DNA of 64,000 nt from Rhizobium rhizogenes (GTDB lineage Bacteria; Pseudomonadota; Alphaproteobacteria; Rhizobiales; Rhizobiaceae). The notes beneath the pieces were generated by a model. That model was not told the origin of the DNA. It did no database searches and saw only the letters and a program-made list of their open reading frames with translations. This document shows positions 7,684 to 28,912 of this stretch, piece after piece. The stretch's first letter is position 1, and each line of letters starts with the position of its first letter. Location of the stretch: assembly GCF_002005205.3 (NCBI RefSeq), contig NZ_CP019702.2:1864001-1928000 (forward strand), in the 5' to 3' direction. Made by a program: the position numbers and the translations under genes.

Positions 7684-10035
7684 TTACAGCCAGCCCAGTG
7701 CTTTCGCCGCGCGGATCGCCTCCGCGCGGCGTTTGCAATCCAGCTTACGGAACAGGTTGCCGAGGTGAAATTTCACCGTCACTTCCGAGATGTTGAGTGT
7801 CTGGGCGATCTTCTTGTTCGACATGCCGCTGGCCAGCAATTGCAGCATCTGCGCTTCCCGCTGCGAAAGCCCGCCATGCAGCGCGCGTGCCTGCGGTGAG
7901 TTGACCGAGGCGGCAAAAATCGACAGCGCGGTGCGCACATCGGAAGAGGTTTCGATGAAACTGCGGATGCGGCGATTGTTGAGAAGCGGTGACAGAAAGA
8001 CGCGCTCTTCCGACAGCACGCCGTTGCAGCCAAGGCGGGTTGCCGATTCAAGAGCGGTGAGGATATGGGCGCGGGCGGTGGCATTGTCGCGGCGCTGCTG
8101 CGCGGCATAGCTCTGCCAGATTCTTAGCGCGACCTTTTCACGATTGGTGACCTTTGGATTGGCGATCATCGCGTCGATCTGGCGGGAGAGATAGGCGCGC
8201 GGTGTGAAAAGATGCACCGCATCGCGCAGCCATGCCATCACATAGGCGATTTCGTCCCGCCGCGTCAGGCGGGAAAGGTCTTCATGGGCGCTTTCCACCC
8301 AGTTGCGGCCCATCGGCATGCGGATTGCCGAAAGCGTCGCGGCGGCATCCGCCCACCGGTTGGCGTTCTGATAGGCGAGGGCCGTCCTGATCTCCATCAT
8401 CGCATGGAATTGCAGCCCTTCCGAAAGGTGAATCCACAGGCCATCGAGAAAGCCCGGACGAACGGTCATCGGAAAATGGTCGATCAACACCTGCGAGGCG
8501 TAAAACAGGGCAAATTGCATCAGGCTCGGCCAGATTTCGGCAGCGGCGAAGTGATCGAATTCGTGCTCGACGAAATGTAGGAGGTCGCGTGGCTTTCCCG
8601 CTTCATAGGCAAGGCAGGCTTCCGCCAGCCGCAACATCCGGAACTCCTGCGCGGCATCATGCGGCACCTGTTCCAACCGTGCGCGCGCCTCCTGCGCCGC
8701 CCGGCGGGCCAGAAGCACATCGCCGCTCATCAGCCGCAGTACGATCTGATGCAGGTGGATGAAGAATTCCAGCAGGGGCTGCCCGCCCATCTTGCGCAGA
8801 TAGATAAGCGCGCGGGCGGCAGCCGCCTCCGCCTCACGGAAATTGCGGCGGCGGATTTCAAATTCCAGCAGCGCATTGTAATAGGCCGCCCATTTACCGT
8901 GATCATCCATCGGATAATCGGCCATGAACTCGCCGAGCCGCGTTATGACAGCGTCATTGGGCGTCAGGTCCTCGGCGATCATCAGGTTTAGCCGGAAGGT
9001 GCGGGCGGCGAAGGAAAACCGCGAGCCACGGGCAAGCACCTTCAGCGGATCAAGATAATCCGAACCGAGACTCTTGCCGAGCAGATGGCGCACGCGTTGC
9101 AATTCACCCTGTTTCAGCAGCGCGCGGGTGACGGCAAAGAGCACGGTTTCATTGGCCGCGATCATATCCTGTGAAAACCGCATGATGATTTCGCGAAACC
9201 GGTCGACGCTGCTTCTGTAGATCAGCTCACGGCCGTCGGCGCGCTCAAGGATTTGTGCGGCATGGGTCTCGTAACCGCGGTCCAGCAGCATGGCCATGGC
9301 GGCCAGCGAACGCCCAGCCTTTTCGAACGCCGAGGCGACCTCCACCACGGCGCTGCCGGCCTGCAATGTGGCGAGGCGTTCTTTTGCCGCAACCGTCAGA
9401 AGCCGTATCAGCGTGCGGTGATTGTCGGGCTTTCCCGTCAGAAAGGGCGGCAGAAGCTTGCTCCAGTCCGCATCTGGATCTGCGGAGGGATTTTCGAGCC
9501 AGAAGGACAGTTCGACCGTTTGGGCAGGGGAAAGATGCGGCAGATAGCTTTCCCGCAAATAGTCGGCACATAACGTTTCGTCCGGCAGGCGCGCCAGCGA
9601 CAGGAAGGCCGGCCACCCCGCATAATCCTCGAGTGCCAGATGCTTCTGCTCAGGCGGAAGGCTTTCGGCCTCGTCCTGCCTGAAGGCCAGTTCGTCCGAT
9701 CCTATGGTGAGCGAGCCGCGATGCAGGATGTGCCGCGCCATGCCACTGATCCGCTGGTCCGGCCGGCAGGCGATGACGACGAAACGCACGGACTCCAGGA
9801 TAGGGGCGGGCATGCGTACCGCCCGTGCAAAGACCGGAACGTCCCACAGCAGGCAGCCATTTGCCGCGTCGTCGCCTTGCGGCTGGTGCGTGCGGCATAT
9901 CTGCGTTCCCAGTTCTTCTGCGAGCATCTCCAGCAACACGCTTTTTCCGGCCCCCGCCGGCGCGCGCAGAAATACCACGCCCGCGGTTTCGCTGGCGATG
10001 CGGTGGCAGAGGCGGGGACGGGGCAGGAGTGTCAT
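7684..10035 (-). CDS. Large LuxR-family transcriptional regulator (MalT-like)
   Basis: 783-residue cytoplasmic regulator with the MalT/LAL layout: an N-terminal P-loop (APAGAGKS, residues 25-32), a long helical middle region probably made of TPR-like repeats, and a C-terminal LuxR-type helix-turn-helix (LSQREAQMLQLLASG, then KIAQTLNISEVTVKFHL). No clear Walker B aspartate pair follows the P-loop, so ATP use is uncertain. No good Shine-Dalgarno precedes the ATG. The gene is divergent from the importer at 10172 and convergent with the RraA-like gene, so it could control either cluster; two direct repeats in the shared promoter region make the rightward importer the better guess (inference). Confidence 0.88.
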   Translation of the reverse strand: MTLLPRPRLCHRIASETAGVVFLRAPAGAGKSVLLEMLAEELGTQICRTHQPQGDDAANGCLLWDVPVFARAVRMPAPILESVRFVVIACRPDQRISGMARHILHRGSLTIGSDELAFRQDEAESLPPEQKHLALEDYAGWPAFLSLARLPDETLCADYLRESYLPHLSPAQTVELSFWLENPSADPDADWSKLLPPFLTGKPDNHRTLIRLLTVAAKERLATLQAGSAVVEVASAFEKAGRSLAAMAMLLDRGYETHAAQILERADGRELIYRSSVDRFREIIMRFSQDMIAANETVLFAVTRALLKQGELQRVRHLLGKSLGSDYLDPLKVLARGSRFSFAARTFRLNLMIAEDLTPNDAVITRLGEFMADYPMDDHGKWAAYYNALLEFEIRRRNFREAEAAAARALIYLRKMGGQPLLEFFIHLHQIVLRLMSGDVLLARRAAQEARARLEQVPHDAAQEFRMLRLAEACLAYEAGKPRDLLHFVEHEFDHFAAAEIWPSLMQFALFYASQVLIDHFPMTVRPGFLDGLWIHLSEGLQFHAMMEIRTALAYQNANRWADAAATLSAIRMPMGRNWVESAHEDLSRLTRRDEIAYVMAWLRDAVHLFTPRAYLSRQIDAMIANPKVTNREKVALRIWQSYAAQQRRDNATARAHILTALESATRLGCNGVLSEERVFLSPLLNNRRIRSFIETSSDVRTALSIFAASVNSPQARALHGGLSQREAQMLQLLASGMSNKKIAQTLNISEVTVKFHLGNLFRKLDCKRRAEAIRAAKALGWL

Positions 10036-10171: not shown

Positions 10172-11200
10172 ATGCAGCAACATCCGCTGGTCGCGATTTT
10201 GAACAGGCTCGGCACCTTCGTGCTGGTCATGATCGCCCTGTCCATCATGATTTTCGGGCTCGCCCGTGTGGTCCCCGGCGATCCTGCCCGCATGGCGTTG
10301 GGTCCTGCGGCAACGCAGGAGCAGGTGGATGCGCTGCGCGGCGAGATGGGCCTCGATAAGCCGCTTGCCATCCAATATCTCGATTACATCGGCAATGCCC
10401 TGCACGGCGATCTCGGTTTTTCGCTGGTGTCGCAGCGCCCCGTCACCACCGATCTGGCGCAGACCGTTCCGGCAACCGTCGAACTGGTGCTGGTCTCTGT
10501 CATCTTCATGTTTGCCGTCGCCATTCCGCTGGGCGTCATCACCGCACATTACCGCGACCGGCCGCTGGACCATATCGGCCGTATCCTGTCGCTCACCGGG
10601 GTGACGATCCCGAGCTTTCTTTTCGCCATCACGCTGCAATTGCTGGCCGCCCGGTTTCTCTCCGGCTGGCCGATCATCGGCAGGCTCGATCACTCGCTCG
10701 GCTGGCAGGGCGGCCCGACGGGCTTCATCCTGATCGACGGCATGCTGGCCGGACGGTTCGATGTGGTGCTGGATGCGCTGAAACACCTTGCGCTGCCGGC
10801 TTTTGCGCTTTCCATGGCCGGCATCGGCCAGATCACCCGCATTACCCGCTCCTCGATGATTGAAAACCAGCGCAAGGACCATGTGCTGACCCTGCAGAGC
10901 TTCGGCGTGCCGGAGCGGGTGATCATCTTCCGTTACCTGCTGAAGCTCTCTTCCATTGCGCCGCTGACGATCATGGGCCTCGAATTTGCGTCGTTGATCG
11001 GCAATGCCTTCGTGATCGAGATGGTCTTCGCCTGGGGCGGGTTCGCTTCCTACGGGTTGAACGCCATCCTGCAGAAAGACCTCAATGCCGTCACTGCCGT
11101 GGTGCTGGTGGCCGGCCTGTTCTTCATCGTTGCGAACCTGATCGTGGATGTCCTGATCTCGATCATCGACCCGCGCCTGCGCCGCAAGGAGGCTCGCTGA
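10172..11200 (+). CDS. Oligopeptide-type ABC transporter permease (DppB family)
   Basis: Inner-membrane permease of 342 residues for the dipeptide/oligopeptide/nickel importer family. The N-terminal membrane segment is followed by the typical LARVVPGDPARMALG stretch; five further membrane segments follow. An open frame extends far upstream over the promoter region, but the ATG at 10172 is preceded by AAGGA and matches the family's normal N-terminus. The stop overlaps the next gene by one base (TGATG). First gene of a long operon with HyuA-like and DUF917 genes, which suggests an amide-like or cyclic substrate rather than ordinary peptides (inference). Confidence 0.92.
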   Translation: MQQHPLVAILNRLGTFVLVMIALSIMIFGLARVVPGDPARMALGPAATQEQVDALRGEMGLDKPLAIQYLDYIGNALHGDLGFSLVSQRPVTTDLAQTVPATVELVLVSVIFMFAVAIPLGVITAHYRDRPLDHIGRILSLTGVTIPSFLFAITLQLLAARFLSGWPIIGRLDHSLGWQGGPTGFILIDGMLAGRFDVVLDALKHLALPAFALSMAGIGQITRITRSSMIENQRKDHVLTLQSFGVPERVIIFRYLLKLSSIAPLTIMGLEFASLIGNAFVIEMVFAWGGFASYGLNAILQKDLNAVTAVVLVAGLFFIVANLIVDVLISIIDPRLRRKEAR

Positions 11201-12081
11201 TGGCTGATATGAAAATGCTCGAACCCACCGATCGCGGTTTAAGCGCCGGTTACATGATGTGGTATCGCTTCAGCCGCAATCCGGCGGCGGTTATCGGTTC
11301 GCTGATCCTTCTGTCGGTGCTGGTGCTGGCGGTCTTCGCGCCATGGCTCACGCCCTATCCGAAACATATCGGCGCGGTCGTCGATTTCCGCGCCCGCCAT
11401 ATGCCGCCGGATCTGGAGCACTGGTTCGGCACCGACAAGGCCGGGCGCGATATCTTTTCCCGTACCATCTTCGGGCTGCGGGTCTCGCTCCTTCTCGTCG
11501 TCGGCGTGCTCGGTATTTCGGTTCCCGTCGGCACGGTGCTCGGCCTCATCGCCGGTTATTTCGGCGGCTGGACCGAGAAACTCATCAGCGGCCTGACGAA
11601 TGTGATGCTGGCCATGCCGCCGCTCGTCATGGCGCTGGCGGTCTCCAACCTCCTGGAACCGACGCTGACGAACGCCATGATCGCGATTACGCTGCTGTGG
11701 TGGACCTGGCACGCGCGGCTGATCTATTCGGTGTCGAAGTCCATTGCGTCCGAAGACTACATCGAGGCGGCGCGTCTTGCCGGTGCCGGCCCCCTGCACA
11801 TTCTCTTTCGCGAAATCCTGCCCAATTGCGTCTCGGTCATATCGGTCAAGACGACGCTTGATGCCGCCTTCGTCATCCTGTTCGGCGCGACGCTCAGCTT
11901 CCTCGGTTTCGGCGTCAAGCCGCCGACCCCCGACCTTGGATCGATGGTTGCCGACGGGCGCCAGTTCATGCCGGATTTCTGGTGGGAAGTGCTCTGCCCC
12001 GGTGCGGCCGTGCTTTACGTGACGCTGGGTTTCAACCTGCTGGGCGACGGCCTGCGCGACATGTTCGACGTGGAAAGCTAA
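11200..12081 (+). CDS. Oligopeptide-type ABC transporter permease (DppC family)
   Basis: Second permease, 293 residues. It has the N-terminal segment of DppC proteins, then the conserved HWFGTDKAGRDIFSRTIFG block near residue 70, the EAA-type loop EAARLAGAGPLHILFREILP near residue 190, and the C-terminal LSFLGFGVKPPTPDLGSM stretch. The start codon overlaps the stop of the DppB-like gene by one base, and the ATPase gene starts 5 bases downstream, so the three are translated as one unit. Confidence 0.93.
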   Translation: MADMKMLEPTDRGLSAGYMMWYRFSRNPAAVIGSLILLSVLVLAVFAPWLTPYPKHIGAVVDFRARHMPPDLEHWFGTDKAGRDIFSRTIFGLRVSLLLVVGVLGISVPVGTVLGLIAGYFGGWTEKLISGLTNVMLAMPPLVMALAVSNLLEPTLTNAMIAITLLWWTWHARLIYSVSKSIASEDYIEAARLAGAGPLHILFREILPNCVSVISVKTTLDAAFVILFGATLSFLGFGVKPPTPDLGSMVADGRQFMPDFWWEVLCPGAAVLYVTLGFNLLGDGLRDMFDVES

Positions 12082-12085
12082 GGCC

Positions 12086-13732
12086 ATGACTGAACCGCTT
12101 CTCAAGGTCGAAAATCTCAACGTTACCTTCACCAATTATGGCCGCACCCGGCAGGTGCTGCGCGATGTCGCCTTCACCGTTGCCGCTGGCGAGCGTGTGG
12201 CGCTGATCGGCGAAACCGGATCGGGCAAATCGGTCACCGCCAAGACGATCATCGGCACTTTGCCGAAGAATGCCGCGATCACCTCCGGCACCATCGTCAT
12301 CGATGGCCGCGATGTGCTTGCCCTGCCGCGCAGAGAACGTGAGGCGCTGAAGGGAACGGCGTTTTCACTGATCATGCAGGACCCGCTATCGTCCTTCAAT
12401 CCGGTCTTCAAGATCGGCACGCATCTTGATGATGTCATGCGCTTTGCCGACAAACGCGATGGTATCAATTCGTCCAAGGCGGAGCGCCGCAACCGCATCG
12501 CAGCCGTTTTGCGCCGGGTACAGCTTGCCGATACCGAGCGGGTGATGAACGCCTATCCGTCCGAGCTGTCGGGCGGTATGCGCCAGCGCGTGCTGATCGG
12601 CCTTGCCCTGCTGCACCAGCCGAAGCTCCTGATCGCCGATGAGCCGGGCACGGCGCTCGATGTGACGACGCAGGATGAAATCCTCAATCTCATCAACCAG
12701 CTGGTTGCCGAAGAAAACATGGCGCTGCTGATGATTACCCACAATCTCGGCGTCGTGCGCAAGGTGGCGGACCGCGTGGTTGTCATGCACCACGGCGATA
12801 TCGTCGAGACCGGCCCTTGCACGCAAATCCTGCATAGTCCCGCCAAGGACTATACGCGTTCACTGCTGGATGCCGTGCCGCCGCTTTATGGCCCGCGCGT
12901 TACCGATCTGGCGCAAAGCACGCGGCAGCCGATCATCACAATCGAAGGTCTGAACAAGATTTACGGCAGGCGCAATGGCTACCATGCCGTGCGCGACGTG
13001 AACCTGACGCTGAAGCAGGGCGAGGTTTTTGGCCTTGCCGGCGAATCCGGTTCCGGCAAGACCTCGGTTGCCCGCATGATCATGGGCCTTTCGCGTCCCA
13101 CCTCCGGTAATCTCGTCATCGACGCCCCGGTGCCTGAGCGCGGCAAGCGGCTGACGCAGATCGTCTATCAAAATCCGGGTACTTCGCTCAATCCGAAGCG
13201 TACCGTCAGGCAGACGCTTTCCCTGCCGCTGAAATCCATCGGCATGGATGGCCAGGCGCGGGAAAGCCGGATGCAGGAACTGATGGGGCTGGTGCGACTG
13301 CCGCAATCCTATCTCGGCAAATATCCGCACGAGCTTTCCGGCGGTCAGAAGCAGCGCGTGGCGATTGCCCGCGCGCTGGCGGCCGAGCCGAAAATCCTCA
13401 TCCTCGACGAGCCGACGGCCGCACTCGATGTCTCCGTGCAAAAGACGGTGATCGACCTTCTGCTGCAACTGCGCGAGGAGCTTGGCCTCACCTATCTGAT
13501 GATCTCGCACGACCTGTCGCTGATGCGCAATTTCTGCTCGCGCATCGCCATCATGCTGCGCGGCGAGATTGTCGAGGAGGGTGTGACATCGGCGGTCTTC
13601 GCCGAGCCTGCCCATCCCTATACCCGCGCCCTGATCGCGGCCATCCCCGTCGTCACCGACGAGGAAGAACGTCTCAAACCCACCGTGACCGAGGAAGAGC
13701 GCATGCGCTTCCTCGTAAAAACGACCGATTGA
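12086..13732 (+). CDS. Fused double ATP-binding protein of oligopeptide-type importer (DppD-DppF)
   Basis: 548 residues carrying two complete ATPase domains that are separate proteins in E. coli. Domain 1 has Walker A GETGSGKS at residues 42-49 and the signature LSGGMRQRV near 161; domain 2 has GESGSGKTS near 318 and LSGGQKQRV near 417, each followed by a normal Walker B. Both sites look catalytically intact. The linker near residue 250 carries the end of the DppD-type C-terminal region that often binds an Fe-S cluster in family members, but here I see no cysteine cluster. The stop overlaps an ATG of the following gene. Confidence 0.94.
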   Translation: MTEPLLKVENLNVTFTNYGRTRQVLRDVAFTVAAGERVALIGETGSGKSVTAKTIIGTLPKNAAITSGTIVIDGRDVLALPRREREALKGTAFSLIMQDPLSSFNPVFKIGTHLDDVMRFADKRDGINSSKAERRNRIAAVLRRVQLADTERVMNAYPSELSGGMRQRVLIGLALLHQPKLLIADEPGTALDVTTQDEILNLINQLVAEENMALLMITHNLGVVRKVADRVVVMHHGDIVETGPCTQILHSPAKDYTRSLLDAVPPLYGPRVTDLAQSTRQPIITIEGLNKIYGRRNGYHAVRDVNLTLKQGEVFGLAGESGSGKTSVARMIMGLSRPTSGNLVIDAPVPERGKRLTQIVYQNPGTSLNPKRTVRQTLSLPLKSIGMDGQARESRMQELMGLVRLPQSYLGKYPHELSGGQKQRVAIARALAAEPKILILDEPTAALDVSVQKTVIDLLLQLREELGLTYLMISHDLSLMRNFCSRIAIMLRGEIVEEGVTSAVFAEPAHPYTRALIAAIPVVTDEEERLKPTVTEEERMRFLVKTTD

Positions 13733-13749
13733 TGAAAGAGGAGCCTGAC

Positions 13750-15306
13750 GTGTATCGCGTTGGAATTGACGTCGGCGGCACGAATACCGATGCCGTTGTG
13801 TTGCAGGATAAAACCGTTCTGGCGGGGGTGAAGGCCTCCACGACAGAGGATGTGACGTCAGGTGTCATCGAAGCCCTTGAAAAGGTCATCGAGGCATCGG
13901 ACATTGACAGGGCACGCATTGGCGCCGTGATGATCGGCACCACGCATTTCACCAATGCGGTGATCGAGCGTCGGCATATGGACGAGGTGGCCGCCATCCG
14001 TCTCGGCCTGCCTTCCGGCGCCGGCCTGCCGCCCATGGTCGATTGGCCGGATGATCTCAAGGAAATCGTCGGCAACCACGGTTATCAGGTGCGCGGCGGT
14101 TATGAATTCGACGGCCGCGAAATCTCGCCGCTCGATGAGGACGAAATCGTCCGCATCGCCGCCGATATCCGCGCCAAGGGCCTGAAGGCCGCCGCCGTCA
14201 CCTGTGTCTTCAGCGGCATCAATGATGTGATGGAGCTGCGGGCGAAGGAAATCCTGCAGGAACGCTGCCCCGGCCTGCCGGTGGTCATGTCCAAGGATAT
14301 TGGCCGTCACGGTCTGCTTGCGCGTGAAAGTGCGGCGATCATGAATGCCAGCCTGCTGTCGCTTGCCGACCGCACCGTTGCGGCTTTCGGCGAGGCGCTG
14401 AAGGCTGCAGGCATCACCTGCCCGTTCTATATCACCCAGAACGACGGCACGCTGATGGCGGCGGATGTGGTGCGCGGTTTCCCCGTGCTCACCTTCGCGT
14501 CCGGCCCGACGAATTCCATGCGCGGTGCGGCTTTCCTCACCGGTCTCAAGGATGCCGTGGTGGTGGATGTCGGCGGCACCACCTCCGATGTCGGCTCGCT
14601 GTCGCACGGCTTCCCGCGTCAGGCCTCGACCACGGTGGATATTGGCGGTGTGCGCACCAATTTCCGCATGCCCGATGTCTTCTCCATCGGTCTTGGCGGT
14701 GGTTCGCTGGTGGTCAATGGCGATCACGGCGTGACCGTAGGACCAAAATCCGTCGGTTACCGGGTTCGCCGCGATGCACTCTGCTTCGGCGGCTCGACCC
14801 TGACGGCGACCGATATCGCCGTTGCCTCCGGCAAGGCCGATGTGGGCGAGAAGGTGCTGGTCGCCAGCCTCGACAAAAAGCTCGTGGATGCGGCGGTCGG
14901 CAAGATCAACGACATGCTTGAAGCCTGCGTGGAGCGCAGCCGCATCTCGTCGTCACCGGTGCCGGTGATCGCCGTTGGCGGCGGCTCCATCCTGATGCCG
15001 GATCGTATCGGTGACCTCGAAGTCATACGGCCGGAGAATTTCGCGGTGGCCAATGCCGTTGGTGCGGCCATTGCGCAGATCAGCGGCGAGACCGACCGGG
15101 TCTTCTCGCTGATCGACGGACGCACGCGCGAGAGCGCGCTGGCCGAGGCGGAAGCGGAGGCCCGCGAAAAGGCGATTGCCGCCGGCGCGATTGCCGAAAC
15201 GCTTGATGTCATCGAGCGCGAGGATATGCCGCTTGCATACCTGCCCGGCAACGCTACCCGCATTCATGTGAAAGTTGTTGGAGAAATGGGAGCCAATCAT
15301 GGCTGA
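13750..15306 (+). CDS. Short HyuA-like hydantoinase/oxoprolinase family protein (copy 1)
   Basis: 518 residues with the hydantoinase/oxoprolinase N-terminal and central domains. The ATP-binding start GIDVGGTNTDAV is at the N-terminus; GTTHFTNAV, a second phosphate-type loop DVGGTTSDVGSL near 280, and VGGGSI near 410 are visible. Full-length HyuA proteins have close to 700 residues; this one lacks the usual C-terminal domain, and no HyuB partner gene is near. Family members use ATP to open hydantoin or 5-oxoproline rings. ATG at 13732 overlaps the previous stop, but GTG at 13750 has GAGGAG exactly 6 bases before it and gives the conserved start, so I chose GTG. It is paired with the DUF917 gene that follows. 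Confidence 0.88.
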   Translation: MYRVGIDVGGTNTDAVVLQDKTVLAGVKASTTEDVTSGVIEALEKVIEASDIDRARIGAVMIGTTHFTNAVIERRHMDEVAAIRLGLPSGAGLPPMVDWPDDLKEIVGNHGYQVRGGYEFDGREISPLDEDEIVRIAADIRAKGLKAAAVTCVFSGINDVMELRAKEILQERCPGLPVVMSKDIGRHGLLARESAAIMNASLLSLADRTVAAFGEALKAAGITCPFYITQNDGTLMAADVVRGFPVLTFASGPTNSMRGAAFLTGLKDAVVVDVGGTTSDVGSLSHGFPRQASTTVDIGGVRTNFRMPDVFSIGLGGGSLVVNGDHGVTVGPKSVGYRVRRDALCFGGSTLTATDIAVASGKADVGEKVLVASLDKKLVDAAVGKINDMLEACVERSRISSSPVPVIAVGGGSILMPDRIGDLEVIRPENFAVANAVGAAIAQISGETDRVFSLIDGRTRESALAEAEAEAREKAIAAGAIAETLDVIEREDMPLAYLPGNATRIHVKVVGEMGANHG

Positions 15307-16432
15307 GACACGCAAGCTGAAATATGACGAAGCGGCATTGCGGACGCTGACCCGTGAAGACCTCGACGCGCTGGAAATCGGCGCCGGCATTCTCGGCACG
15401 GGCGGCGGCGGCAATCCCTATCTCGGCAAGCTGCTGGCGCTGGAGGCCATGAAGGCCGGTTACGAGATGAAGATCCTCGCAACCGACGCCATCGAGCCGG
15501 ATGCGCTCTGCATGTCCATCGGCGGCATCGGCGCGCCTGTCGTCGGCGTCGAGCGCATTCGCGAAGGCCGCGAAGGCCTGCGTTGCCTGCGGGCGATGGA
15601 AGAGCTGATCCGCACGCCCGTAGACGCCATTGTCTGCGAGGAAATTGGCGGTTCCAATTCCATGAACCCGCTGGTGACTGCGGCGCTGGGCGGTCTGCCG
15701 ATCCTCGATTGCGACGGCATGGGCCGGGCCTTCCCGGAAATGCAAATGACCACCTTCTCCATCTACGGCCATAGTTCCACGCCATCGGTGATGTGCGATC
15801 TGCACGGCAATGCCGTTATCTTCAGCCATGCCGTTTCCGAAGTCTGGCACGAGCGTATGGCGCGCGCCTGCGTCGTCTCGCAGGGCGGCGGCGCGATGCT
15901 GGCGACCGCGCCGATGCAGGCGCATTACGTGCACCAGTATGGCATTCCGAAAACCTACACCAAGGCGATCGCCATCGGTGAGGCGGTGATCCGCGCCCGC
16001 AAACAGCAGGAAGACCCGATTGCCGCAGTCTGCGCACTGGAAGGCGGGCGGCGCATCTTCAACGGCAAGATCACCGATCTGAAGCGCCATCTGCGCGGCG
16101 GTTTCGCGGTTGGCGATCTCACGCTGTCCGGCTTCGACGATTGCGCCGGCCAGACGGCGGGCGTTGCCATCCAGAACGAATTCCTGCTGTTCTCCCGAGA
16201 CGGCAAGGTGGAAGTGACGGTGCCCGACCTGATCGTCCTGCTCGATGTCGACACCGGTTATCCGATCACCACCGAAGTGCTGCGCTACGGCCAGCGTGTG
16301 GCCGTCATCGCCATCCCCTGCCATGACCTGCTGCGCAGCGCCCGCGCGCTTGAGGTCGTCGGGCCGGCGGCATTCGGTTACCCGGATATTCCTTTCTCAC
16401 CGCTGCCCGTTCCGGTCAGCAAGGCTGCCTAA
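15299..16432 (+). CDS. DUF917 / S-methyl-thiohydantoin desulfurase family protein (copy 1)
   Basis: 377 residues of the DUF917 family, whose N-terminal domain is named after S-methyl thiohydantoin desulfurase and whose genes commonly sit beside hyuA. Conserved blocks: GTGGGGNPY near residue 32, EEIGGSNSMNPL near 115, DCDGMGRAFPEMQMT near 140, and RYGQRVAVIA with GPAAFGYPD near the C-terminus. No signal peptide. The ATG lies within the last 8 bases of the HyuA-like gene and has GGGAG 6 bases before it; an in-frame start 24 bases earlier is less likely. The biochemical role of most family members is not known; context suggests work on a cyclic amide. Confidence 0.87.
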   Translation: MAETRKLKYDEAALRTLTREDLDALEIGAGILGTGGGGNPYLGKLLALEAMKAGYEMKILATDAIEPDALCMSIGGIGAPVVGVERIREGREGLRCLRAMEELIRTPVDAIVCEEIGGSNSMNPLVTAALGGLPILDCDGMGRAFPEMQMTTFSIYGHSSTPSVMCDLHGNAVIFSHAVSEVWHERMARACVVSQGGGAMLATAPMQAHYVHQYGIPKTYTKAIAIGEAVIRARKQQEDPIAAVCALEGGRRIFNGKITDLKRHLRGGFAVGDLTLSGFDDCAGQTAGVAIQNEFLLFSRDGKVEVTVPDLIVLLDVDTGYPITTEVLRYGQRVAVIAIPCHDLLRSARALEVVGPAAFGYPDIPFSPLPVPVSKAA

Positions 16433-16475
16433 CCATAAGCGGGGCCAATGACCTGCAATAAAGAGGAGAACGATA

Positions 16476-18071
16476 ATGAAAATGCCTGTACTTTCTTCCC
16501 GTCTCGCCGCGCTGGCGCTCGGCACGGCGCTCGTGCTGCCGTTTGTTTCTTCCGCAGCCCTTGCGGAAGACAAGGTGTCGGTCGCGGTCAACACCATGCA
16601 GATATTCAGCTCGCTCGACCCGGCGAAGGTGACTGATTACACCGGCTACATGGCCATCGTGAACATGTATGACGGTCTGACCACGGTGAACGCCAAGGGC
16701 GAGATCGTGCCGCATCTGGCGAAATCCTGGGATATTTCGCAAGATGGTCTGACCTATACCTTCCACCTGCGGGACGATGCGAAATTCCAGGATGGCACGG
16801 CGGTGAAGGCTGCCGATCTTGCCTGGTCGATCCAGCGCCTGCTCGGCATCAACAAGGGTCCGTCGAACCTCATCGTCGGCGTGCTGAAGCCCGAAAACGT
16901 CACCGCGCCTGACGATGCGACGCTGGTCATGAAGATCGAGCGCCAGTTTTCGCCCTTCATGGCGGCGACGCCCTTGATGATGGCGATGAACAAGACGCTG
17001 ATCGAAGCCAATGCCAAGCCGGAAGACAAGTGGGGCGAGGCCTATGTCGGCGAACATTCCGCCGGTTCCGGCCCCTACAAGCTCGTCAGCTACAACCGTT
17101 CCGCCGATATGGTCATTGCCCGCAATGCCGATTATTTCCTCGGCTGGACGAAGGGCAAGCCCATCGACGAAGTGCGCTTCGTGCAGACCAGCGACGACGC
17201 CACCGTCAAGGCGCTGGCGGAAAAGGGTGAACTCGGCCTTTCCTCGCACGGGCTTGGCAACGACACCTATGAATCCATCGGCCGCATGAAGGGTTACAAG
17301 CTGATCCAGACCCGCACCGCCGGCGGTTTCGTCATCAAGCTCAACACCAAGGTCTATCCGACCGATGACGTCCATGTGCGCCGCGCCATCGCCTATGCGA
17401 CGGATTACAAGACGATCCAGGAAGTGATCTATCCGGGCTTCGACATGCGCGGACCGCTCTCCGACGCGTTCAAGGATGCGCATAACGGCGATATCCAGCC
17501 GGGCGTTTACGATCTGGAAAAAGCCAAGGAAGAACTGGCGAAGTCGAAATATGCCGGCCAGAAGATCACGCTGGTCAACAGCTATGTCGCGTCGCTGGCC
17601 TTCGAGGCCGAAGTGGCGCTGCTATTGCAATCGAGCCTCGAGCAGATCGGCATCACGCTCGATATCAAGCCGGAGCCGTGGAACCGTATCGTCGAGCTGT
17701 CCTCCAAGCCCGAAACCACCCCGGCATCGACGCAGGTGAACATCTCTCCGACCTATCCGTCGCCGGACGCGATGTTCTACAACCAGTATCATTCCAAGGC
17801 TTCCGGCACCTGGATGTCGATGGAATGGTTGCAGAATGCCGAGATCGACGGCCTGATCGACAAGGTCCGCGCCACCACCGATGTGAACGAGCAGAACGCC
17901 ACCTACAAGGAACTGCAGACGAAGATCGCCGATCTTCAGCCTGACGTCTGGGCCGTTGCGCCGAACCGCCGTTATGCGGCGAACAAGTGCCTTCAGGGTT
18001 ACGAGTTCATTCCCATGCAGAGCTGGGACCTGAACTTCTCCAACTTCCATTGGGACTGCAAGGCGGAGTGA
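16476..18071 (+). CDS. Oligopeptide-type ABC transporter substrate-binding protein (family 5)
   Basis: 531-residue periplasmic binding protein of the DppA/OppA/NikA family. A signal peptide is clear: basic start, hydrophobic stretch at residues 8-26, then SSAALAE with likely cleavage after residue 30. The family pattern DGLTYTFHLRDDAKFQDGT is near residue 90. The C-terminal part holds NISPTYPSPDAMFYNQYHS, the usual long-range region that closes over ligand. The ATG follows AAGAGGAG. It belongs with the permeases at 10172-12081 and the ATPase at 12086. Ligand unknown. Confidence 0.93.
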   Translation: MKMPVLSSRLAALALGTALVLPFVSSAALAEDKVSVAVNTMQIFSSLDPAKVTDYTGYMAIVNMYDGLTTVNAKGEIVPHLAKSWDISQDGLTYTFHLRDDAKFQDGTAVKAADLAWSIQRLLGINKGPSNLIVGVLKPENVTAPDDATLVMKIERQFSPFMAATPLMMAMNKTLIEANAKPEDKWGEAYVGEHSAGSGPYKLVSYNRSADMVIARNADYFLGWTKGKPIDEVRFVQTSDDATVKALAEKGELGLSSHGLGNDTYESIGRMKGYKLIQTRTAGGFVIKLNTKVYPTDDVHVRRAIAYATDYKTIQEVIYPGFDMRGPLSDAFKDAHNGDIQPGVYDLEKAKEELAKSKYAGQKITLVNSYVASLAFEAEVALLLQSSLEQIGITLDIKPEPWNRIVELSSKPETTPASTQVNISPTYPSPDAMFYNQYHSKASGTWMSMEWLQNAEIDGLIDKVRATTDVNEQNATYKELQTKIADLQPDVWAVAPNRRYAANKCLQGYEFIPMQSWDLNFSNFHWDCKAE

Positions 18072-18090
18072 TCTTCGCCTCATGAAAACC

Positions 18091-18118
18091 GGCCCCGCCA
18101 CAAATGGCGGGGTTGGCC
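18091..18118 (+). terminator. Hairpin after binding-protein gene
   Basis: CCCCGCCA at 18093-18100 pairs with TGGCGGGG at 18105-18112 around a 4-base loop, 20 bases after the binding-protein stop. Only two T residues follow, so partial termination or mRNA end protection is more likely than full termination; the downstream genes run in the same direction. Confidence 0.55.
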
Positions 18119-18189
18119 AGACTTGGAACTTCAAAGGGAAGGAGCATCGCTTGCGGCCGGAAAGGCTGCGGCATGCCCGAGGATGACGC

Positions 18190-19266
18190 ATGATCCAGGA
18201 ATTTTCCGAAGACGATATCGAACCTCTGGCCACCGGTGCCTGGATTCTGGGAACGGGCGGCGGCGGCAATCCCTATATCTCGACGCTCAACCTGCGCCGT
18301 CTTTATGCCGAGGGCAGGCGGGTGAAGGTCATGGATCCCATGGCGCTCGCCGATGACGACATGGTTGCCGTCGTCTCCAAGATGGGTGCACCTCTTGTCG
18401 GTCAGGAGCGGTTGGGGGATCCCGTGCATCTCGCCCGTGCCGTCGAGGTGATGGAGGATTATCTCGGCAAGCCGTTCCGGGCGATCATGAGCGTTGAAAT
18501 CGGCGGTTCCAATGCGCTGTCGTCCTTCCTCGCCGCCGCTGTGCTCGACCGGCCGGTCGTGAATGCCGATGCCATGGGACGCGCCTATCCGGAAGCGCAG
18601 ATGACATCCTTCGCCATCGGCAACCTGCCGATGTTTCCGCTGTCGCTGGTCGATGTGCGCGACAATGAGGTGATCGTGACGCGGGCCGCCTCGTGGAAAT
18701 GGATGGAGCGCATCTCGCGCAAGGTCTGTACCGAAGTCGGCTCCACCGCCGCCACCTGCAAGGCGCCGCGCACCGGCAGGGAAGTGAAGGAATGGGGCAT
18801 TCATTACACCGTCACCAAGGCGACCGAACTCGGGCGCGCGGTGATGGAGGCGCGTGCGCGCCATGACGATCCGGTTCAGGCGGTTCTTAACCACGAGGAC
18901 GGCAAGCAACTGTTCCGTGGCAAGGTGGTGGATGTGGCGCGTGAGACCACCGGTGGTTTCCTGCGCGGCAGCACGACCATTGAAGGCATCGATGCCGACC
19001 GTGGTTCGCGCATGGAACTGGCCTTCCAGAACGAATGGGCGGTCGCCTTCCGCGATGGCCAGCCTGTCGCCATGACGCCGGACCTGCTTTGCCTTCTCGA
19101 CACTGTCTCGGGCGGCGCCATCGGCACGGAATCGGTGCGTTACGGCCAGCGTGTCACGGTTGTCGCCCTGCCGGCGCCGGAGCTTTTGACGACACCTGCC
19201 GGCATCGCCGCCGTCGGTCCGCGCGCCTTCGGTTATGACATTGACTTCAGATCGGTATTCCCATGA
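18190..19266 (+). CDS. DUF917 family protein (copy 2)
   Basis: 358 residues, clearly a paralogue of the protein at 15299: GTGGGGNPY, EIGGSN, DAMGRAYPEAQMTSF, RYGQRV and GPRAFGYD occur in the same order. The two differ over most of the rest, so this is an old duplication or a heteromeric pair, not a recent copy. No signal peptide. Its stop overlaps the start of the second HyuA-like gene (ATGA), so in this copy the gene order is DUF917 then hyuA, the reverse of copy 1. Function is likely tied to its HyuA partner. Confidence 0.87.
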   Translation: MIQEFSEDDIEPLATGAWILGTGGGGNPYISTLNLRRLYAEGRRVKVMDPMALADDDMVAVVSKMGAPLVGQERLGDPVHLARAVEVMEDYLGKPFRAIMSVEIGGSNALSSFLAAAVLDRPVVNADAMGRAYPEAQMTSFAIGNLPMFPLSLVDVRDNEVIVTRAASWKWMERISRKVCTEVGSTAATCKAPRTGREVKEWGIHYTVTKATELGRAVMEARARHDDPVQAVLNHEDGKQLFRGKVVDVARETTGGFLRGSTTIEGIDADRGSRMELAFQNEWAVAFRDGQPVAMTPDLLCLLDTVSGGAIGTESVRYGQRVTVVALPAPELLTTPAGIAAVGPRAFGYDIDFRSVFP

Positions 19267-20801
19267 AACGCATCGGTATTGACGTTGGCGGCACCAATAC
19301 GGATGCCGTTCTGATCGATGGAGACACCATCGTCGCTTCCATAAAGGTCCCGACCACGCAGGATGTCCTGTCCGGCGTAAAGGCGGCGCTTGCCCATGTG
19401 GCGGGCCATGTCGGCACGGCTGACCGGCCGATTGATGCGGTGATGATCGGCACCACGCACTTTACCAATGCGGTGGTGGAGCGCGCCCGGCTGGAACGGG
19501 TCGCGGCGATCCGCATCGCATTGCCAACAGGTTCTTCACTGCCGCCGATGTGCGACTGGCCGAAGGATCTTCGCGAGGCCGTGGATCCGTTGATCTTCAT
19601 GGTCCACGGCGGCCATGAATATGACGGCAGTCCGCTGGTGCCGATGGTTCCCGATGAAATCCGTGAAGCGGCGATGAAAATCCGCGATGCGGGTATCACT
19701 TCCATCGCCATTTCTGCGACCTTCTCACCGCTGACGACGGAATGCGAGGTGAGGGCGGCGGAAATCGTCCGTTCGGTCATTCCCGATGCACGCATCACGC
19801 TCTCCCATACGCTTGGCCGCATCGGGCTTCTGGAACGAGAAAATGTCGCTCTTCTGAATGCAGCGCTGCAAACGCTCGGCAAGACCACGGTTCAGGCATT
19901 TTCGGATGCGCTGCGCGAAGCGGGCGTAAGGGCACCGTTCTATCTGACCCAGAATGACGGCACCGTGGCGCTCGCGGATGTGGCCGCCGCCAACCCCGTG
20001 CACAGTTTCGCTTCCGGCCCGACCAATTCGATGCGCGGCGCGGCCTTCCTCACCGGGCTTTCCGACGCCATGGTGGTGGATGTTGGCGGCACCACCTCCG
20101 ATATCGGCTGCCTTGTCGGCGGCTTTCCGCGCGAGGCGAACAATATCGTCCATATTGGCGGGGTGCGCACGCTTTTCCGTATGCCCGATCTTCTGCCGAT
20201 TGCGCTCGGCGGCGGCACCATCGTTGACCCTGAGACAGGCAAGGTCGGTCCGCGCTCGGTCGGTTACCGCATCCTGACGGAAGCCCGTGTTTTCGGCGGC
20301 GAGACGTTAACGACGTCGGATATTGCGGTGGCCGCCGGCCTGATCGAGATGGGTGACCGCGACCGTGTGAAAGGCCTCGATCCGGCTTTCGTGCAGGCCA
20401 CGCTTCAACGCATCCGTGACATGGTGGCCGACAGTTTCGACCAGATGAAGACCTCGGCCGAAGACGTGCCGCTGGTCGCTGTCGGCGGTGGGGCGTTCCT
20501 GATCCCGGAGACGGTTCCGGGTGCGTCGGAAGTGCTGCGTGTGGAAAATGCCGGCGTTGCCAATGCGCTGGGCGCGGCGATGGCGCAGGTTTCCGGTGAG
20601 ATCGACCAGGTCTTTTCCGGCCTGAGCCGGGACGAAGCCCTTGCGAAAGCCGAGACCGAGGCGCAGAACGCAGCCGTTGCGTCTGGCGCGGAGCGGGCGA
20701 GCCTCAAGACGCTTGAGGTGGAGGATATTCCGATCGCCTATCTGCCGGGCGGCGCTCGCAGAGTGCGCGTACGGGTCATCGGCGATATCGCCTTTCATTG
20801 A
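19263..20801 (+). CDS. Short HyuA-like hydantoinase/oxoprolinase family protein (copy 2)
   Basis: 512 residues, same short architecture as the protein at 13750: starts MKRIGIDVGGTNTDAV and contains GTTHFTNAVVERARL, ASGPTNSMRGAAFLTGL, DVGGTTSDIG and GGGAFLIP. The C-terminal domain of full-size HyuA is absent, and again there is no HyuB. No Shine-Dalgarno is visible; translation is probably coupled to the DUF917 gene through the ATGA overlap. Two distinct HyuA-DUF917 pairs in one operon may act on two successive intermediates, on two stereoisomers, or as one hetero-oligomer (inference). Confidence 0.88.
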   Translation: MKRIGIDVGGTNTDAVLIDGDTIVASIKVPTTQDVLSGVKAALAHVAGHVGTADRPIDAVMIGTTHFTNAVVERARLERVAAIRIALPTGSSLPPMCDWPKDLREAVDPLIFMVHGGHEYDGSPLVPMVPDEIREAAMKIRDAGITSIAISATFSPLTTECEVRAAEIVRSVIPDARITLSHTLGRIGLLERENVALLNAALQTLGKTTVQAFSDALREAGVRAPFYLTQNDGTVALADVAAANPVHSFASGPTNSMRGAAFLTGLSDAMVVDVGGTTSDIGCLVGGFPREANNIVHIGGVRTLFRMPDLLPIALGGGTIVDPETGKVGPRSVGYRILTEARVFGGETLTTSDIAVAAGLIEMGDRDRVKGLDPAFVQATLQRIRDMVADSFDQMKTSAEDVPLVAVGGGAFLIPETVPGASEVLRVENAGVANALGAAMAQVSGEIDQVFSGLSRDEALAKAETEAQNAAVASGAERASLKTLEVEDIPIAYLPGGARRVRVRVIGDIAFH

Positions 20802-20845
20802 TGGTAAGAGGCCCTGCCGGAGTGGGGCGACGAGGGAGTGAGCAC

Positions 20846-21790
20846 ATGACGAAGATCGCACTGGCCATCCATGGTGGTTGCGGCGTGATGCCGGAAGATA
20901 GCATGACGTCTGAGGAATGGGCTGCTGCGCGCGACGATCTGGCAGCGGCGCTGCGTGCCGGTTATGGCGTGCTGAAGGCTGGCGGAACCGCGCTTGAGGC
21001 GGTCGAGGCGGCGGTCGTCGTCATGGAGGACAGCCCGCATTTTAATGCCGGGCATGGTGCCGCACTCAACGAAAACGGCATTCACGAACTCGATGCATCC
21101 ATTATGGATGGTGCCACACTGGCGGCGGGCGCGATCAGCGCGTCCCGCGCCATCCGCAACCCGGTGAAGGCGGCGCGCGCGCTGATGGCGGATGAGCGTG
21201 CCGTCTATCTGACGGGTGAGGCGGCGGACCGCTTCGCCAGGGAAAAGGGGCTAGCCACCGAGCCTCAATCCTACTTCACCACACAAAAGCGCGTGGAGGC
21301 ACTGGCGGCGATGAAGCGCCACGCCGCCACAGGCACGGAAGCGACTGAAAACGAAAAGCACGGGACCGTCGGCGCAGTGGCGCTCGATGCGGCGGGGCAT
21401 CTTGCTGCGGCCACCTCGACCGGCGGTTACACCAACAAGCCGGACGGCCGGGTGGGAGACAGCCCGGTAATCGGCGCCGGCACCTATGCGCGGGATGGCG
21501 CCTGTGCGGTCTCCGGGACCGGCAAGGGCGAGTTTTTCATCCGTTATGTCGTCGGCCACGAGATCGCGTCCCGCGTTGCCTATCTCGGGCAGGATCTGGA
21601 GACTGCCGCCGGCGATCTCGTGCACAAGGATCTGGCCCCCTACGATATCGGTGCCGGGCTAGTGGCGATCGATGCCGAAGGCGGTATTGCCGCACCCTAT
21701 AACACGCCTGGCATGTTCCGTGGCTGGGTGACGCCATCGGGAGAGGCACGCGTGGCCACCCATGACAAGGTCTACGAGGTGAAATTGTAG
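20846..21790 (+). CDS. Isoaspartyl peptidase / L-asparaginase (Ntn hydrolase)
   Basis: 314 residues of the plant-type asparaginase family (E. coli IaaA), a cytoplasmic enzyme that cleaves itself and then hydrolyses beta-aspartyl peptides or asparagine. The autocleavage site is visible as KHGTVGAVALD; Thr174 would become the nucleophile at the new N-terminus of the small subunit. AIHGG at residues 7-11 and NAGHGAALNENG near 67 are family blocks. The upstream open frame runs 48 bases further, but the ATG at 20846 has GAGGGAG at 20832-20838. As the last gene of this operon it suggests that a product of the HyuA/DUF917 steps has an isoaspartyl or other beta-linked amide. Confidence 0.92.
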   Translation: MTKIALAIHGGCGVMPEDSMTSEEWAAARDDLAAALRAGYGVLKAGGTALEAVEAAVVVMEDSPHFNAGHGAALNENGIHELDASIMDGATLAAGAISASRAIRNPVKAARALMADERAVYLTGEAADRFAREKGLATEPQSYFTTQKRVEALAAMKRHAATGTEATENEKHGTVGAVALDAAGHLAAATSTGGYTNKPDGRVGDSPVIGAGTYARDGACAVSGTGKGEFFIRYVVGHEIASRVAYLGQDLETAAGDLVHKDLAPYDIGAGLVAIDAEGGIAAPYNTPGMFRGWVTPSGEARVATHDKVYEVKL

Positions 21791-22879: not shown

Positions 22880-22895
22880 ACGCATAATATTGCGT
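22880..22895. promoter_or_regulatory. Palindrome, candidate LysR site upstream of second importer operon
   Basis: ACGCATAATATTGCGT: arms ACGCA and TGCGT around an A+T centre, 85 bases before the first permease start and in the only sizeable gap after the LysR gene. The surrounding A+T-rich stretch (22855-22905) is unlike the coding DNA on both sides and is the likely promoter region. Confidence 0.4.
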
Positions 22896-22979
22896 GATAT
22901 TTCTCAATCCGTCATAGTCGCCAGCAACGAAACCGATAGAGGCGGGAACACGTTCCCGGCCATCAATCGTGGGGAACCG

Positions 22980-23924
22980 ATGATAAGATTCATACTGAGC
23001 CGTCTTTTGATGGCGCTGCCGACGATCGCATTCGTGTCGATCACGGTCTTTGCGCTCATCCGCTTCATTCCGGGCGATCCGGCTGCCCTGATGCTGGGCG
23101 ACATGGCGCAACCGGAACAGATCGAAGCCATGAGGACCGAACTCGGCCTCGACAAGTCCATGCCGCAACAATTCGTCATCTGGGCCGGCAATGTGGTGCA
23201 GGGTGATTTCGGCCGCTCCATCGTCAACGACGAAGCGGTGTTGCCGCTGGTCGTGTCGCGCTTCCTCGTCAGCGCCGAGATCGTCGTGGTCGCCGTGTTG
23301 CTCGCCAGCCTGATTGCGGTTCCGGCAGGTGTGATCGCCGCCTGGAAACAGAACAGCCTGACCGATCTTGCGCTGGTGGGAACGGCAACCCTGCTCCTCT
23401 CCATCCCGACATTCTGGCTGGGCCTGCTGCTTCTTCTGTTTTTCGGCCTCAAGCTCGGCTGGCTGCCGGTGCTGGGATATGTGTCGATCAGCGATAATCT
23501 TGTTGGTGGCATGCTTTATCTCGTCCTGCCCGTCATGACGCTGGTGATCCACGAAATGGGCGTTCTGATCCGCATGGCGCGCGCCTCGACACTGGAGGTT
23601 CTGCGGCTGGATTACATTACCCATGCCCGTGCCAAGGGTCTTTCGGAAAGCGCCGTGCTCTGGCGGCACGCCTTCAAGAACGCCTTCGGCCCGACCTGGA
23701 CGATGATCGGCCTCATCCTCGGCAATCTCCTCGGCGGCATCGCCGTCATCGAAACGGTGTTCACCATTCCCGGCCTCGGACGGTTGATGGTCGACAGTAT
23801 TTTTGCCCGTGACTATCCGGTCATACAGGGCTGCCTGCTGTTCGTCTCGCTGTCTTATGTGCTGGTCAACCTGTTCGTCGACCTTCTTTATCCCCTCTTC
23901 GATCCGCGTGTGGTTGCCGAATGA
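22980..23924 (+). CDS. Oligopeptide-type ABC transporter permease (DppB family), second importer
   Basis: 314 residues, six membrane segments, with the family block FIPGDPAALMLGDMAQPEQI near residue 30 and the EAA loop near residue 205 (DYITHARAKGLSESAVLWRH). An open frame begins 90 bases earlier, but the ATG at 22980 follows GGGGAA and gives the usual N-terminus. It is clearly not a recent copy of the permease at 10172. The ATGA at its end starts the DppC-like gene. Confidence 0.92.
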   Translation: MIRFILSRLLMALPTIAFVSITVFALIRFIPGDPAALMLGDMAQPEQIEAMRTELGLDKSMPQQFVIWAGNVVQGDFGRSIVNDEAVLPLVVSRFLVSAEIVVVAVLLASLIAVPAGVIAAWKQNSLTDLALVGTATLLLSIPTFWLGLLLLLFFGLKLGWLPVLGYVSISDNLVGGMLYLVLPVMTLVIHEMGVLIRMARASTLEVLRLDYITHARAKGLSESAVLWRHAFKNAFGPTWTMIGLILGNLLGGIAVIETVFTIPGLGRLMVDSIFARDYPVIQGCLLFVSLSYVLVNLFVDLLYPLFDPRVVAE

Positions 23925-24739
23925 AAAAGTTCACACTTAACGGGCTTATCGGCGGCTTTCTCATCGCCCTCCTGCTCATCACCGCCGCAACCGGTCTGTT
24001 CTGGACCCCCTATGACCCGATGAAGCTCGGCTTCGCCTCGCGTCTGGCCGGTCCAAGCGCCAGCCATCTTCTCGGTACCGACGAATTCGGGCGCGATGTT
24101 TTGAGCCGCCTGATGGTCGGCGCGCGCGCCAGCGTCTGGATCGGCTTCCTGACGGTCGCTTTCGCGACGATCTTCGGCACGCTGATCGGCCTTGTCAGCG
24201 GTTATGCGCGGGGCTGGGTGGATGGCGTCATCATGGCCATCAACAATGCGCTTCTCGCTTTTCCGGGCATTCTGCTGGCGCTCGGCCTGCTCGCGGTTTT
24301 TGGCGCAAACCAGTATGGCATCATCTTCGCACTCGGCATCGCCTATACGCCATCCATGGCCCGCGTGGTGCGCGGTGCCGTGCTTTCTCTGCGTGAGCGG
24401 GAATTCATCGAGGCGTCGCTGGTGATGGGCAATGGCGAGATCTACACCATGTTCCGCCACATCCTGCCCAATTGCATCGCGCCGATCACGGTTCTTGCCA
24501 CCTCCATGTTCGGCTGGGCCATCCTGTCGGAAAGCGCGCTCTCCTTCCTCGGCCTCGGCGTGCCGCCGCCGGCCCCCACCTGGGGCAACATGCTGGCCGC
24601 CGGCCGGCCCTTCATCCAGCAGGCTGTCTGGCTCGGGCTTTTCCCCGGTCTCTGCATCGCGCTGACGCTGCTTGGCATCAATCTTCTGGGCGATGCCCTT
24701 CGCGACAGGCTTGACCCGCGCATGAGAGGTCTCAAATGA
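23921..24739 (+). CDS. Oligopeptide-type ABC transporter permease (DppC family), second importer
   Basis: 272 residues with the conserved HLLGTDEFGRDVLSRLMVGAR block near residue 48, the EAA-type loop REFIEASLVMGNGEIYTMFR near 160 and LSFLGLGVPPPAPTWGNML near 207. The start overlaps the preceding stop by four bases (ATGA), and the next gene starts the same way, so this permease pair and its ATPase are tightly coupled. Confidence 0.93.
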   Translation: MKKFTLNGLIGGFLIALLLITAATGLFWTPYDPMKLGFASRLAGPSASHLLGTDEFGRDVLSRLMVGARASVWIGFLTVAFATIFGTLIGLVSGYARGWVDGVIMAINNALLAFPGILLALGLLAVFGANQYGIIFALGIAYTPSMARVVRGAVLSLREREFIEASLVMGNGEIYTMFRHILPNCIAPITVLATSMFGWAILSESALSFLGLGVPPPAPTWGNMLAAGRPFIQQAVWLGLFPGLCIALTLLGINLLGDALRDRLDPRMRGLK

Positions 24740-26370: not shown

Positions 26371-26383
26371 CAGGAAGATGACA

Positions 26384-27325: not shown

Positions 27326-27358
27326 GTCACAATCAACGACAACAAAGAGGGTAGAACA

Positions 27359-28903: not shown

Positions 28904-28912
28904 TCCACTGTT

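Follow-up and report, generated by a model that had tools for sequence, protein, structure and literature searches.

What does a cell take up and process through an operon that combines a peptide-type importer with two candidate ring-opening enzymes and a dipeptidase-family gene? This question is raised by a 64,000 nt stretch of Rhizobium rhizogenes DNA (the window), in which nine plus-strand genes at 10172–21790 encode an Opp/Dpp-type importer, two pairs of a short HyuA protein and a DUF917 protein, and a homologue of the isoaspartyl peptidase IaaA. A sequence-only reading had proposed that an imported cyclic amide is opened here in two steps and finished by the peptidase. Import, ATP-dependent opening and an end peptidase are supported by conserved gene linkage, retained GGT motifs in HyuA, retained IaaA residues and a binding protein that lacks the amine site for linear peptides; two steps and an obligatory IaaA are not. 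As a putative function, ATP-dependent opening of some imported cyclic amide is very probable, and the narrower proposal, that cyclic dipeptides or close cyclic peptide amides are taken up and opened with ATP, stands just short of an even chance. Cyclic dipeptides are abundant and, according to the accessible part of PMC3852281, resisted the peptidases tested there; with an importer, two ring-opening candidates and dipeptidase-family genes together, the locus makes the question of a cyclic-dipeptide hydrolase directly testable.

A conserved two-pair operon

A genome collection was scanned with DUF917-2, and the best 80 of 205 relatives, at least about 75% identical, were kept. Their loci comprised 52 that hold both pairs (type A), 27 in which a DUF917-2/hyuA2 pair stands beside an importer transcribed divergently, the first pair being absent from the stretch (type B), and one too short to classify. 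All 52 type-A loci keep the order perB-perC-ABC-hyuA1-DUF917-1-SBP-DUF917-2-hyuA2 (SBP, solute-binding protein), so this eight-gene core is not a chance grouping, and the gene linkage on which the sequence-only reading depended is conserved. These loci derive from 41 Rhizobiaceae, 4 Roseobacteraceae, 1 Paracoccaceae and 6 genomes without a family label, and the operon proteins of the window are 94–100% identical to those of an Agrobacterium pusense locus (L004). Upstream, likewise in 52 of 52, lies a large divergent gene for a LuxR-type protein (7684..10035, minus strand, 783 aa; Pfam GerE), the probable regulator of the operon.

Open reading frames together with Pfam and NCBIfam scans bore out the gene positions, names and single strand assigned earlier. 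The importer part begins with two Opp/Dpp/Nik-type permeases, perB (10172..11200, 342 aa; BPD_transp_1 and BPD_transp_1_N), whose ATG start at 10172 is preceded by AAGGAA, and perC (11200..12081; BPD_transp_1 and OppC_N), and continues with a fused ABC ATPase of the DppD-DppF type (12086..13732; two ABC_tran stretches and oligo_HPY); with the SBP_bac_5 protein further downstream, the permease, ATPase and binding-protein families of an Opp/Dpp importer are all present by Pfam. Starts are mostly coupled, as had been read, with four overlaps (perB/perC, ATPase/hyuA1, hyuA1/DUF917-1 and DUF917-2/hyuA2) and gaps of 4, 43, 118 and 44 bp at the other junctions.

HyuA and DUF917 as partner subunits

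Both HyuA proteins, encoded by hyuA1 (13729..15306, 525 aa; TTG start at 13729, followed by an ATG codon) and hyuA2 (19263..20801, 512 aa), carry Hydant_A_N and Hydantoinase_A domains (Pfam) and retain both GGT motifs (residues 13 and 279 in HyuA1, 6 and 272 in HyuA2), which we take to be the nucleotide-site motifs of the ASKHA fold. Their lengths compare with 689 positions for the CapA model. No HyuB partner was found among the 30 window proteins scanned; the neighbour of each HyuA is a DUF917 protein, DUF917-1 (15299..16432, 377 aa; ATG start at 15299) or DUF917-2 (18190..19266, 358 aa), each with S-Me-THD_N and S-Me-THD_C domains (PF06032 and PF20906). Within the genome that holds the window (5.48 Mb, three contigs), PF06032 matches these two operon genes only, and Hydantoinase_A matches the two HyuAs and one gene on another contig that spans nearly the whole profile. 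Forty DUF917 columns were invariant among 20 HyuA-paired proteins, including both from the window. A structural model of DUF917-2 (predicted local distance difference test, pLDDT, 88) had 2o3i as its sole clear structural match, other rows being weak, and because 2o3i is a protein without assigned function the model adds no mechanism.

The Pfam domains of these proteins are those of S-methyl thiohydantoin desulfurase, and the sequence-only reading had linked DUF917 with thiohydantoin chemistry. That link did not survive comparison with curated models: against NF058529/NF058532, DUF917-1 scored 105.8/114.1 bits and DUF917-2 93.5/113.4 bits (94–114 bits overall), far under the cut-offs of 440/450, and a desulfurase identity for the operon proteins was rejected on these cut-offs. 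HyuA-paired DUF917s, furthermore, score apart from stand-alone ones, and we give thiohydantoin desulfuration, as in ergothioneine breakdown, hardly any credence as the function of the operon.

Pairing was surveyed in 88 DUF917 loci, 16 from plasmid records (those of 150 with a DUF917 match) and 72 from genome stretches. The latter were chosen manually, at roughly one per genus, among matches in three draws that overlap (26 of 397, 35 of 385 and 42 of 297 genomes). The genomes were Pseudomonadota, mostly Alphaproteobacteria; labels were assigned by phmmer with about 70 query proteins rather than by Pfam, and pairing was judged by the distance of 3′ ends on the same strand. A short HyuA adjoined DUF917 on the same strand in 62 of the 88 sampled loci, and 61 of the 65 DUF917s scoring at least 250 bits against the queries were HyuA-paired, versus 1 of 23 below 250 bits. 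This near-constant pairing, together with the lack of HyuB in the operon, suggests that DUF917 replaces HyuB. By separating HyuA-paired from stand-alone DUF917, the survey should stop the annotation of paired ones as desulfurases. Four high-scoring DUF917s had no HyuA in the stretch (L121, L155, L158 and L168), and two of these (L155 and L158) lie near Opp-type importer genes.

Transport genes near the 62 paired loci were of the Opp type in 27, NCS1 in 11, PotD type in 5, DctM in 2, OPT in 2 and BPD2 in 2; some loci have two, and in 17 no transporter was found in the stretch. Near the 26 unpaired DUF917 loci, Opp-type genes were seen in 3 and NCS1 genes in 3. AroM genes accompanied 19 of the 62 paired loci, 10 of these with Opp-type genes and none with NCS1. 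In our reading, a single ring-opening module serves a variety of rings, and the importer gives a hint of how large the substrate is.

The same survey bears on an alternative, the conversion of hydantoins into N-carbamoyl amino acids by the pairs; carboxymethyl- or carboxyethyl-hydantoin, formed when amino acids are carbamoylated, would be examples. Elsewhere, genes for NCS1 permeases, PucR and Asp/Glu/hydantoin racemases accompany HyuA-DUF917 pairs, N-methylhydantoinase is the best PDB match of HyuA2, and genes of the M20 amidohydrolase family, which includes carbamoylases, occur near some pairs and at 29016–30473 of the window, outside the operon. The operon itself, however, holds no carbamoylase candidate, its importer is of the peptide type, and its downstream enzymes belong to dipeptidase families; we consider hydantoin opening unlikely here.

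Near some pairs (L054, 8903–9790, minus strand; L131, 8007–8918, minus strand), an AroM domain is fused to a LuxR-type GerE DNA-binding domain, an arrangement confirmed by Pfam on two members that, from its domains, looks like a regulator with a racemase-like AroM sensor domain. Type-B loci hold an AroM gene in 26 of 27 cases and an AroM-LuxR fusion gene in 25 of 27; a search of the genome holding the window found no AroM gene.

The solute-binding protein

The binding protein (16476..18071; SBP_bac_5) was aligned with the 80 sbp1-like proteins of the 80 kept loci, seven proteins encoded at other HyuA-DUF917 loci and controls from E. coli; the Haloferax protein (L138), a fragment, was left out. 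Arg383 and Asp436 of E. coli DppA (precursor numbers), which are swapped in mutant 8z1z, served as reference residues, and we take Asp436 to hold the amino end of the peptide and Arg383 to serve its other end. All four E. coli peptide binders, DppA, OppA, MppA and DdpA (the last presumably a binder of D,D-dipeptides), have Asp at the position of Asp436. Type-A proteins have Thr, Asn or Ser there (52 of 52; Thr in the window) and type-B proteins Val or Ile (27 of 27), so that Asp436 is absent from all 79 relatives of the two types, although at only about 20% identity to the controls this column may be misplaced. Arg stands there in the 80th protein, whose operon is unrelated, and Asp is also missing from all seven proteins of other HyuA-DUF917 loci; NikA and GsiB have Ala and Ser, respectively. 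The Arg383 position does not discriminate, as OppA, MppA and DdpA are also without it. As far as aligned residues can tell, the binding protein argues against ordinary linear peptides and would be compatible with ring, glutathione-like or opine ligands.

Opp-type importers and peptidases usually serve peptides, and the operon could on that ground be an ordinary linear-peptide importer in which the HyuA-DUF917 genes are unrelated passengers. The missing amine-binding Asp stands against this, and so do the enzyme genes, which in all 52 two-pair loci lie between those of the importer; we regard this reading as very unlikely.

A different ligand is brought into view by AgaA, which among PDB sequences matches the binding protein best and was solved with agropinic acid. 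Opine- or Amadori-type lactams (agropinic-acid-like or pyroglutamyl) or isopeptide-derived rings might be opened by the pairs, with IaaA splitting the beta-aspartyl product, a role that would suit IaaA better than plain diketopiperazines; E. coli iaaA, moreover, adjoins the genes of a glutathione importer whose binding protein, GsiB, is likewise without the Asp. Many other folds nevertheless score much as AgaA does (a model of the binding protein, with pLDDT 74, matched many family-5 proteins at similar scores and was not used for the residue argument), and the occurrence of the locus in Rhizobiaceae at large and in Roseobacteraceae is unexpected for opine use. Among the papers listed by an open-access literature search on agropinic acid, none was fitting. 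We hold such lactams to be a distinctly unlikely substrate.

Terminal peptidases

The last gene of the operon, iaaA (20846..21790; ATG start at 20846), encodes an isoaspartyl peptidase/asparaginase-2 homologue (PF01112; 44% identity to E. coli IaaA) and is the only PF01112 match in its genome. All eight E. coli residues checked (N67, T179, T197, R207, D210, T230, G231 and G233), which we take to be the Thr nucleophile and Asp-binding residues, are kept, as they are in all 38 relatives that are 300 aa or longer, including one (L046) that lies outside the operon. Against the NCBIfam equivalog PRK10226 the protein scored 246.6 bits and did not reach the cut-off of 567; by profile score it is a homologue, not a certified equivalog.

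The downstream side could be read in 50 of the 52 type-A loci, the other two ending too early. An iaaA gene follows hyuA2 within 400 bp in 37 of these 50. Fourteen loci hold an M19 dipeptidase gene (11 also with iaaA, three with M19 only), its identity confirmed by Pfam in two type-A members. The proposal that IaaA is an obligatory last step thus had to be dropped: it is absent beside hyuA2 in 13 of 50 loci, among them the three with M19 only. The genome holding the window has three M19 genes outside the operon, the nearest 63% identical to the operon M19 of a relative. In one of the 37 loci (L014, Xaviernesmea oryzae), the iaaA ending at 13642 on the plus strand is split over two frames beside an M19 gene and is a broken copy or an assembly error. 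Among the 62 paired loci of the survey, IaaA was near 2 and M19 near 2, which makes the peptidase linkage a trait of type A and its close kin and not of the whole family.

Origin of the two pairs

The two pairs are paralogous and well diverged, as had been noted, with 52% identity over 513 aa between HyuA1 and HyuA2 and 39% over 353 aa between DUF917-1 and DUF917-2. Their opposite internal order also stood, but it is inherited by lineage and does not reflect an inversion. On a tree of 93 DUF917 proteins (the window, six type-A and four type-B loci, plasmid records and further genomes), the label HyuA-first or DUF917-first changes 3 times compared with a shuffled mean of 30 (four rows unlabelled); on a tree of 79 HyuA proteins (quick search, with support by the Shimodaira-Hasegawa-like approximate likelihood ratio test, SH-aLRT, only), it changes 3 times compared with a shuffled mean of 26. 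DUF917-1 falls in the HyuA-first lineage with operons of Ensifer adhaerens (L139), Qingshengfaniella (L137), L171 and L174, each of which has one HyuA, an Opp-type importer and a LuxR gene, and HyuA1 forms an 11-row group with exactly these four (SH-aLRT 98). DUF917-2, of the DUF917-first lineage, groups with type B, and a group of 13 rows unites HyuA2 with type B, Ketogulonicigenium and one further genome (SH-aLRT 99). Local duplication of one pair is ruled out, as the pairs occupy different supported groups in both subunit trees. Because the trees of both subunits agree, the operon is, on phylogenetic grounds, a composite, in which a pair with a separate evolutionary history was added to a LuxR-type operon that had one already.

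This origin bears on the proposed two-step opening, which the second pair does not require: its 27 type-B relatives have a single pair and an importer of their own. The nearest relatives of the first pair have one DUF917 (L139) or two (L137, L171 and L174), 'one HyuA' being counted per operon, since other replicons may hold more (Ensifer record H32). As the operon merges two cassettes, opening in parallel is no worse a fit than opening in consecutive steps, and we infer from these sequence relationships that the two pairs probably act in parallel rather than in sequence, with a weaker case for the first pair. Across the survey, one HyuA accompanies two or more DUF917s in 11 of the 62 paired loci (for example L111, L137, L169, L170, L171 and L174); in type A no second lone DUF917 was seen beside a HyuA, and a whole second pair is there instead. 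A possible broken second DUF917 in Ensifer L139 (10074–10343) gave no Pfam match.

Proposed function

The importer type, the change in the binding site, the dipeptidase genes and reported strain activities point to a cyclic dipeptide as the ring. In the mechanism that we propose, the Opp-type importer would take up the ring, most likely 2,5-diketopiperazines and perhaps those containing Asp or Asn. Each HyuA-DUF917 pair would be a two-subunit, ATP-dependent lactam hydrolase in which HyuA would use ATP to activate the amide of the ring, as happens in 5-oxoprolinase and caprolactamase, and DUF917, in the place of HyuB, would complete hydrolysis. The two pairs, being of different lineage, would probably open different rings or stereoisomers in parallel, and the released dipeptide would be cut by IaaA if beta-aspartyl and, in relatives, by M19 dipeptidase.

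Reported activities come from the accessible portion of PMC3852281, where 11 diketopiperazines withstood 15 peptidases, two recombinant D-hydantoinases showed no activity, and 3 of 34 cyclic-amidase strains cleaved some, Rhizobium sp. NA04-01 acting on cyclo(Asp-Phe), cyclo(Asp-Asp) and cyclo(Gly-Phe). The same portion cites Agrobacterium radiobacter NM 5-3 for cleavage of Gly-containing rings, and also a two-enzyme breakdown of cyclo(Gly-Leu) in which a dipeptidase acts after a hydrolase, the latter being unclear there. A homologue of DUF917-2 (P0006, 97% identical) is named from Agrobacterium radiobacter, which we count in favour of the cyclic-dipeptide proposal. In what is available of PMC6061476, HyuA-HyuB chemistry is described and some so-called oxoprolinase genes are suggested to be possible cyclic dipeptide hydrolase genes, and the available text of PMC11055893 places DUF917, AroM, dipeptide-ABC and peptidase genes near cyclodipeptide-oxidase genes and suggests hydantoinase activity for DUF917.

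Several observations weigh against cyclic dipeptides. GsiB, which serves the import of linear glutathione, is likewise without the Asp. IaaA chemistry needs a beta-linked Asp with free alpha groups. Opening a plain Asp diketopiperazine would be expected to give alpha-linked dipeptides, unfit for IaaA, and for IaaA to act, a beta-aspartyl ring, an Asn/Asp side reaction or a side role for IaaA would be needed. Ten of the 50 readable type-A loci have neither peptidase gene by the 400-bp rule, though two of them (L028 and L046) hold an IaaA-like gene elsewhere in the locus. The NCS1 linkage (11 of 62) and PucR suggest hydantoin- or nucleobase-like rings for other family members. Strains negative for diketopiperazines include the Rhizobiales genera Ochrobactrum and Aminobacter (PMC3852281, accessible part), and no measured activity of any HyuA-DUF917 pair was found in the open-access literature. 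Finally, the cyclodipeptide-oxidase marker PF19585 (CDO-B) had no match in the genome holding the window and exceeded its cut-off in 0 of 398 Pseudomonadota genomes (one weak match below it), so linkage to cyclodipeptide oxidase gives no support in this phylum.

Beyond this operon, it is a tentative suggestion, which we think could well be wrong, that HyuA-DUF917 enzymes form a class of ATP-dependent cyclic-dipeptide hydrolase not recognised before, that the operon is the genetic basis of the degradation reported from Agrobacterium and Rhizobium, and that its pairs cover different rings or stereoisomers. If this were true, DUF917, named after thiohydantoin chemistry, would gain a second function.

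Neighbouring genes

Synteny stops at iaaA, beyond which four relatives with 94–96% iaaA identity (L003, L006, L012 and L050) continue with other genes. Extension of the operon into the LysR gene and second importer that follow (from 21894) was rejected, as near-identical Agrobacterium-type relatives lack them there; because synteny ends at iaaA, they are separate from the operon. This region (22890–30473) holds a second Opp-type importer with the LysR gene before it, a binding protein, an M20 amidohydrolase and a beta-lactamase-family serine hydrolase (26360–27220; 61.6 bits against a class A cut-off of 200), and follows iaaA in only some near-identical relatives. Elsewhere, Mur ligase-family and cyanophycin synthetase genes adjoin a HyuA-DUF917-Opp operon in Shinella zoogloeoides (L140, 15505–18975, minus strand), either by chance or through some tie with peptides that contain Asp, and sigma, anti-sigma, fasciclin and DUF4394 genes lie near HyuA-DUF917 operons of Alloyangia (L146, 18768–23301) and Qingshengfaniella (L137, 13065–15912).

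Relation to known systems

No described pathway with this gene set was found in the open-access literature, as the sequence-only reading had supposed. The operon shares with the HyuA/HyuB lactam hydrolases (5-oxoprolinase, N-methylhydantoinase and CapAB) the N-terminal and central domains of HyuA, the GGT motifs and a two-gene enzyme, but its HyuA is shorter and is partnered by DUF917 instead of HyuB. S-Me-THD_N and S-Me-THD_C are common to its DUF917s and the thiohydantoin and S-methyl thiohydantoin desulfurases, whereas the operon proteins fall far below the NCBIfam cut-offs and nearly all of their high-scoring relatives in the survey are HyuA-paired. In E. coli, iaaA likewise adjoins an Opp-like importer (gsiABCD) whose binding protein lacks the linear-peptide Asp, so that an iaaA gene beside an Opp-type importer has a precedent; that locus, unlike ours, has no HyuA-DUF917 and imports glutathione. 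The non-CDPS cyclodipeptide-oxidase clusters, as far as the available text of PMC11055893 describes them, bring DUF917, AroM-type, dipeptide-ABC and peptidase genes together, but our operon is without the oxidase component. The operon also resembles the one-HyuA operons (type B, and the LuxR operons of Ensifer and Qingshengfaniella): these have a single HyuA, AroM genes in type B and no IaaA seen beside them, yet they are built from the same families, and each is nearest to one of the two pairs.

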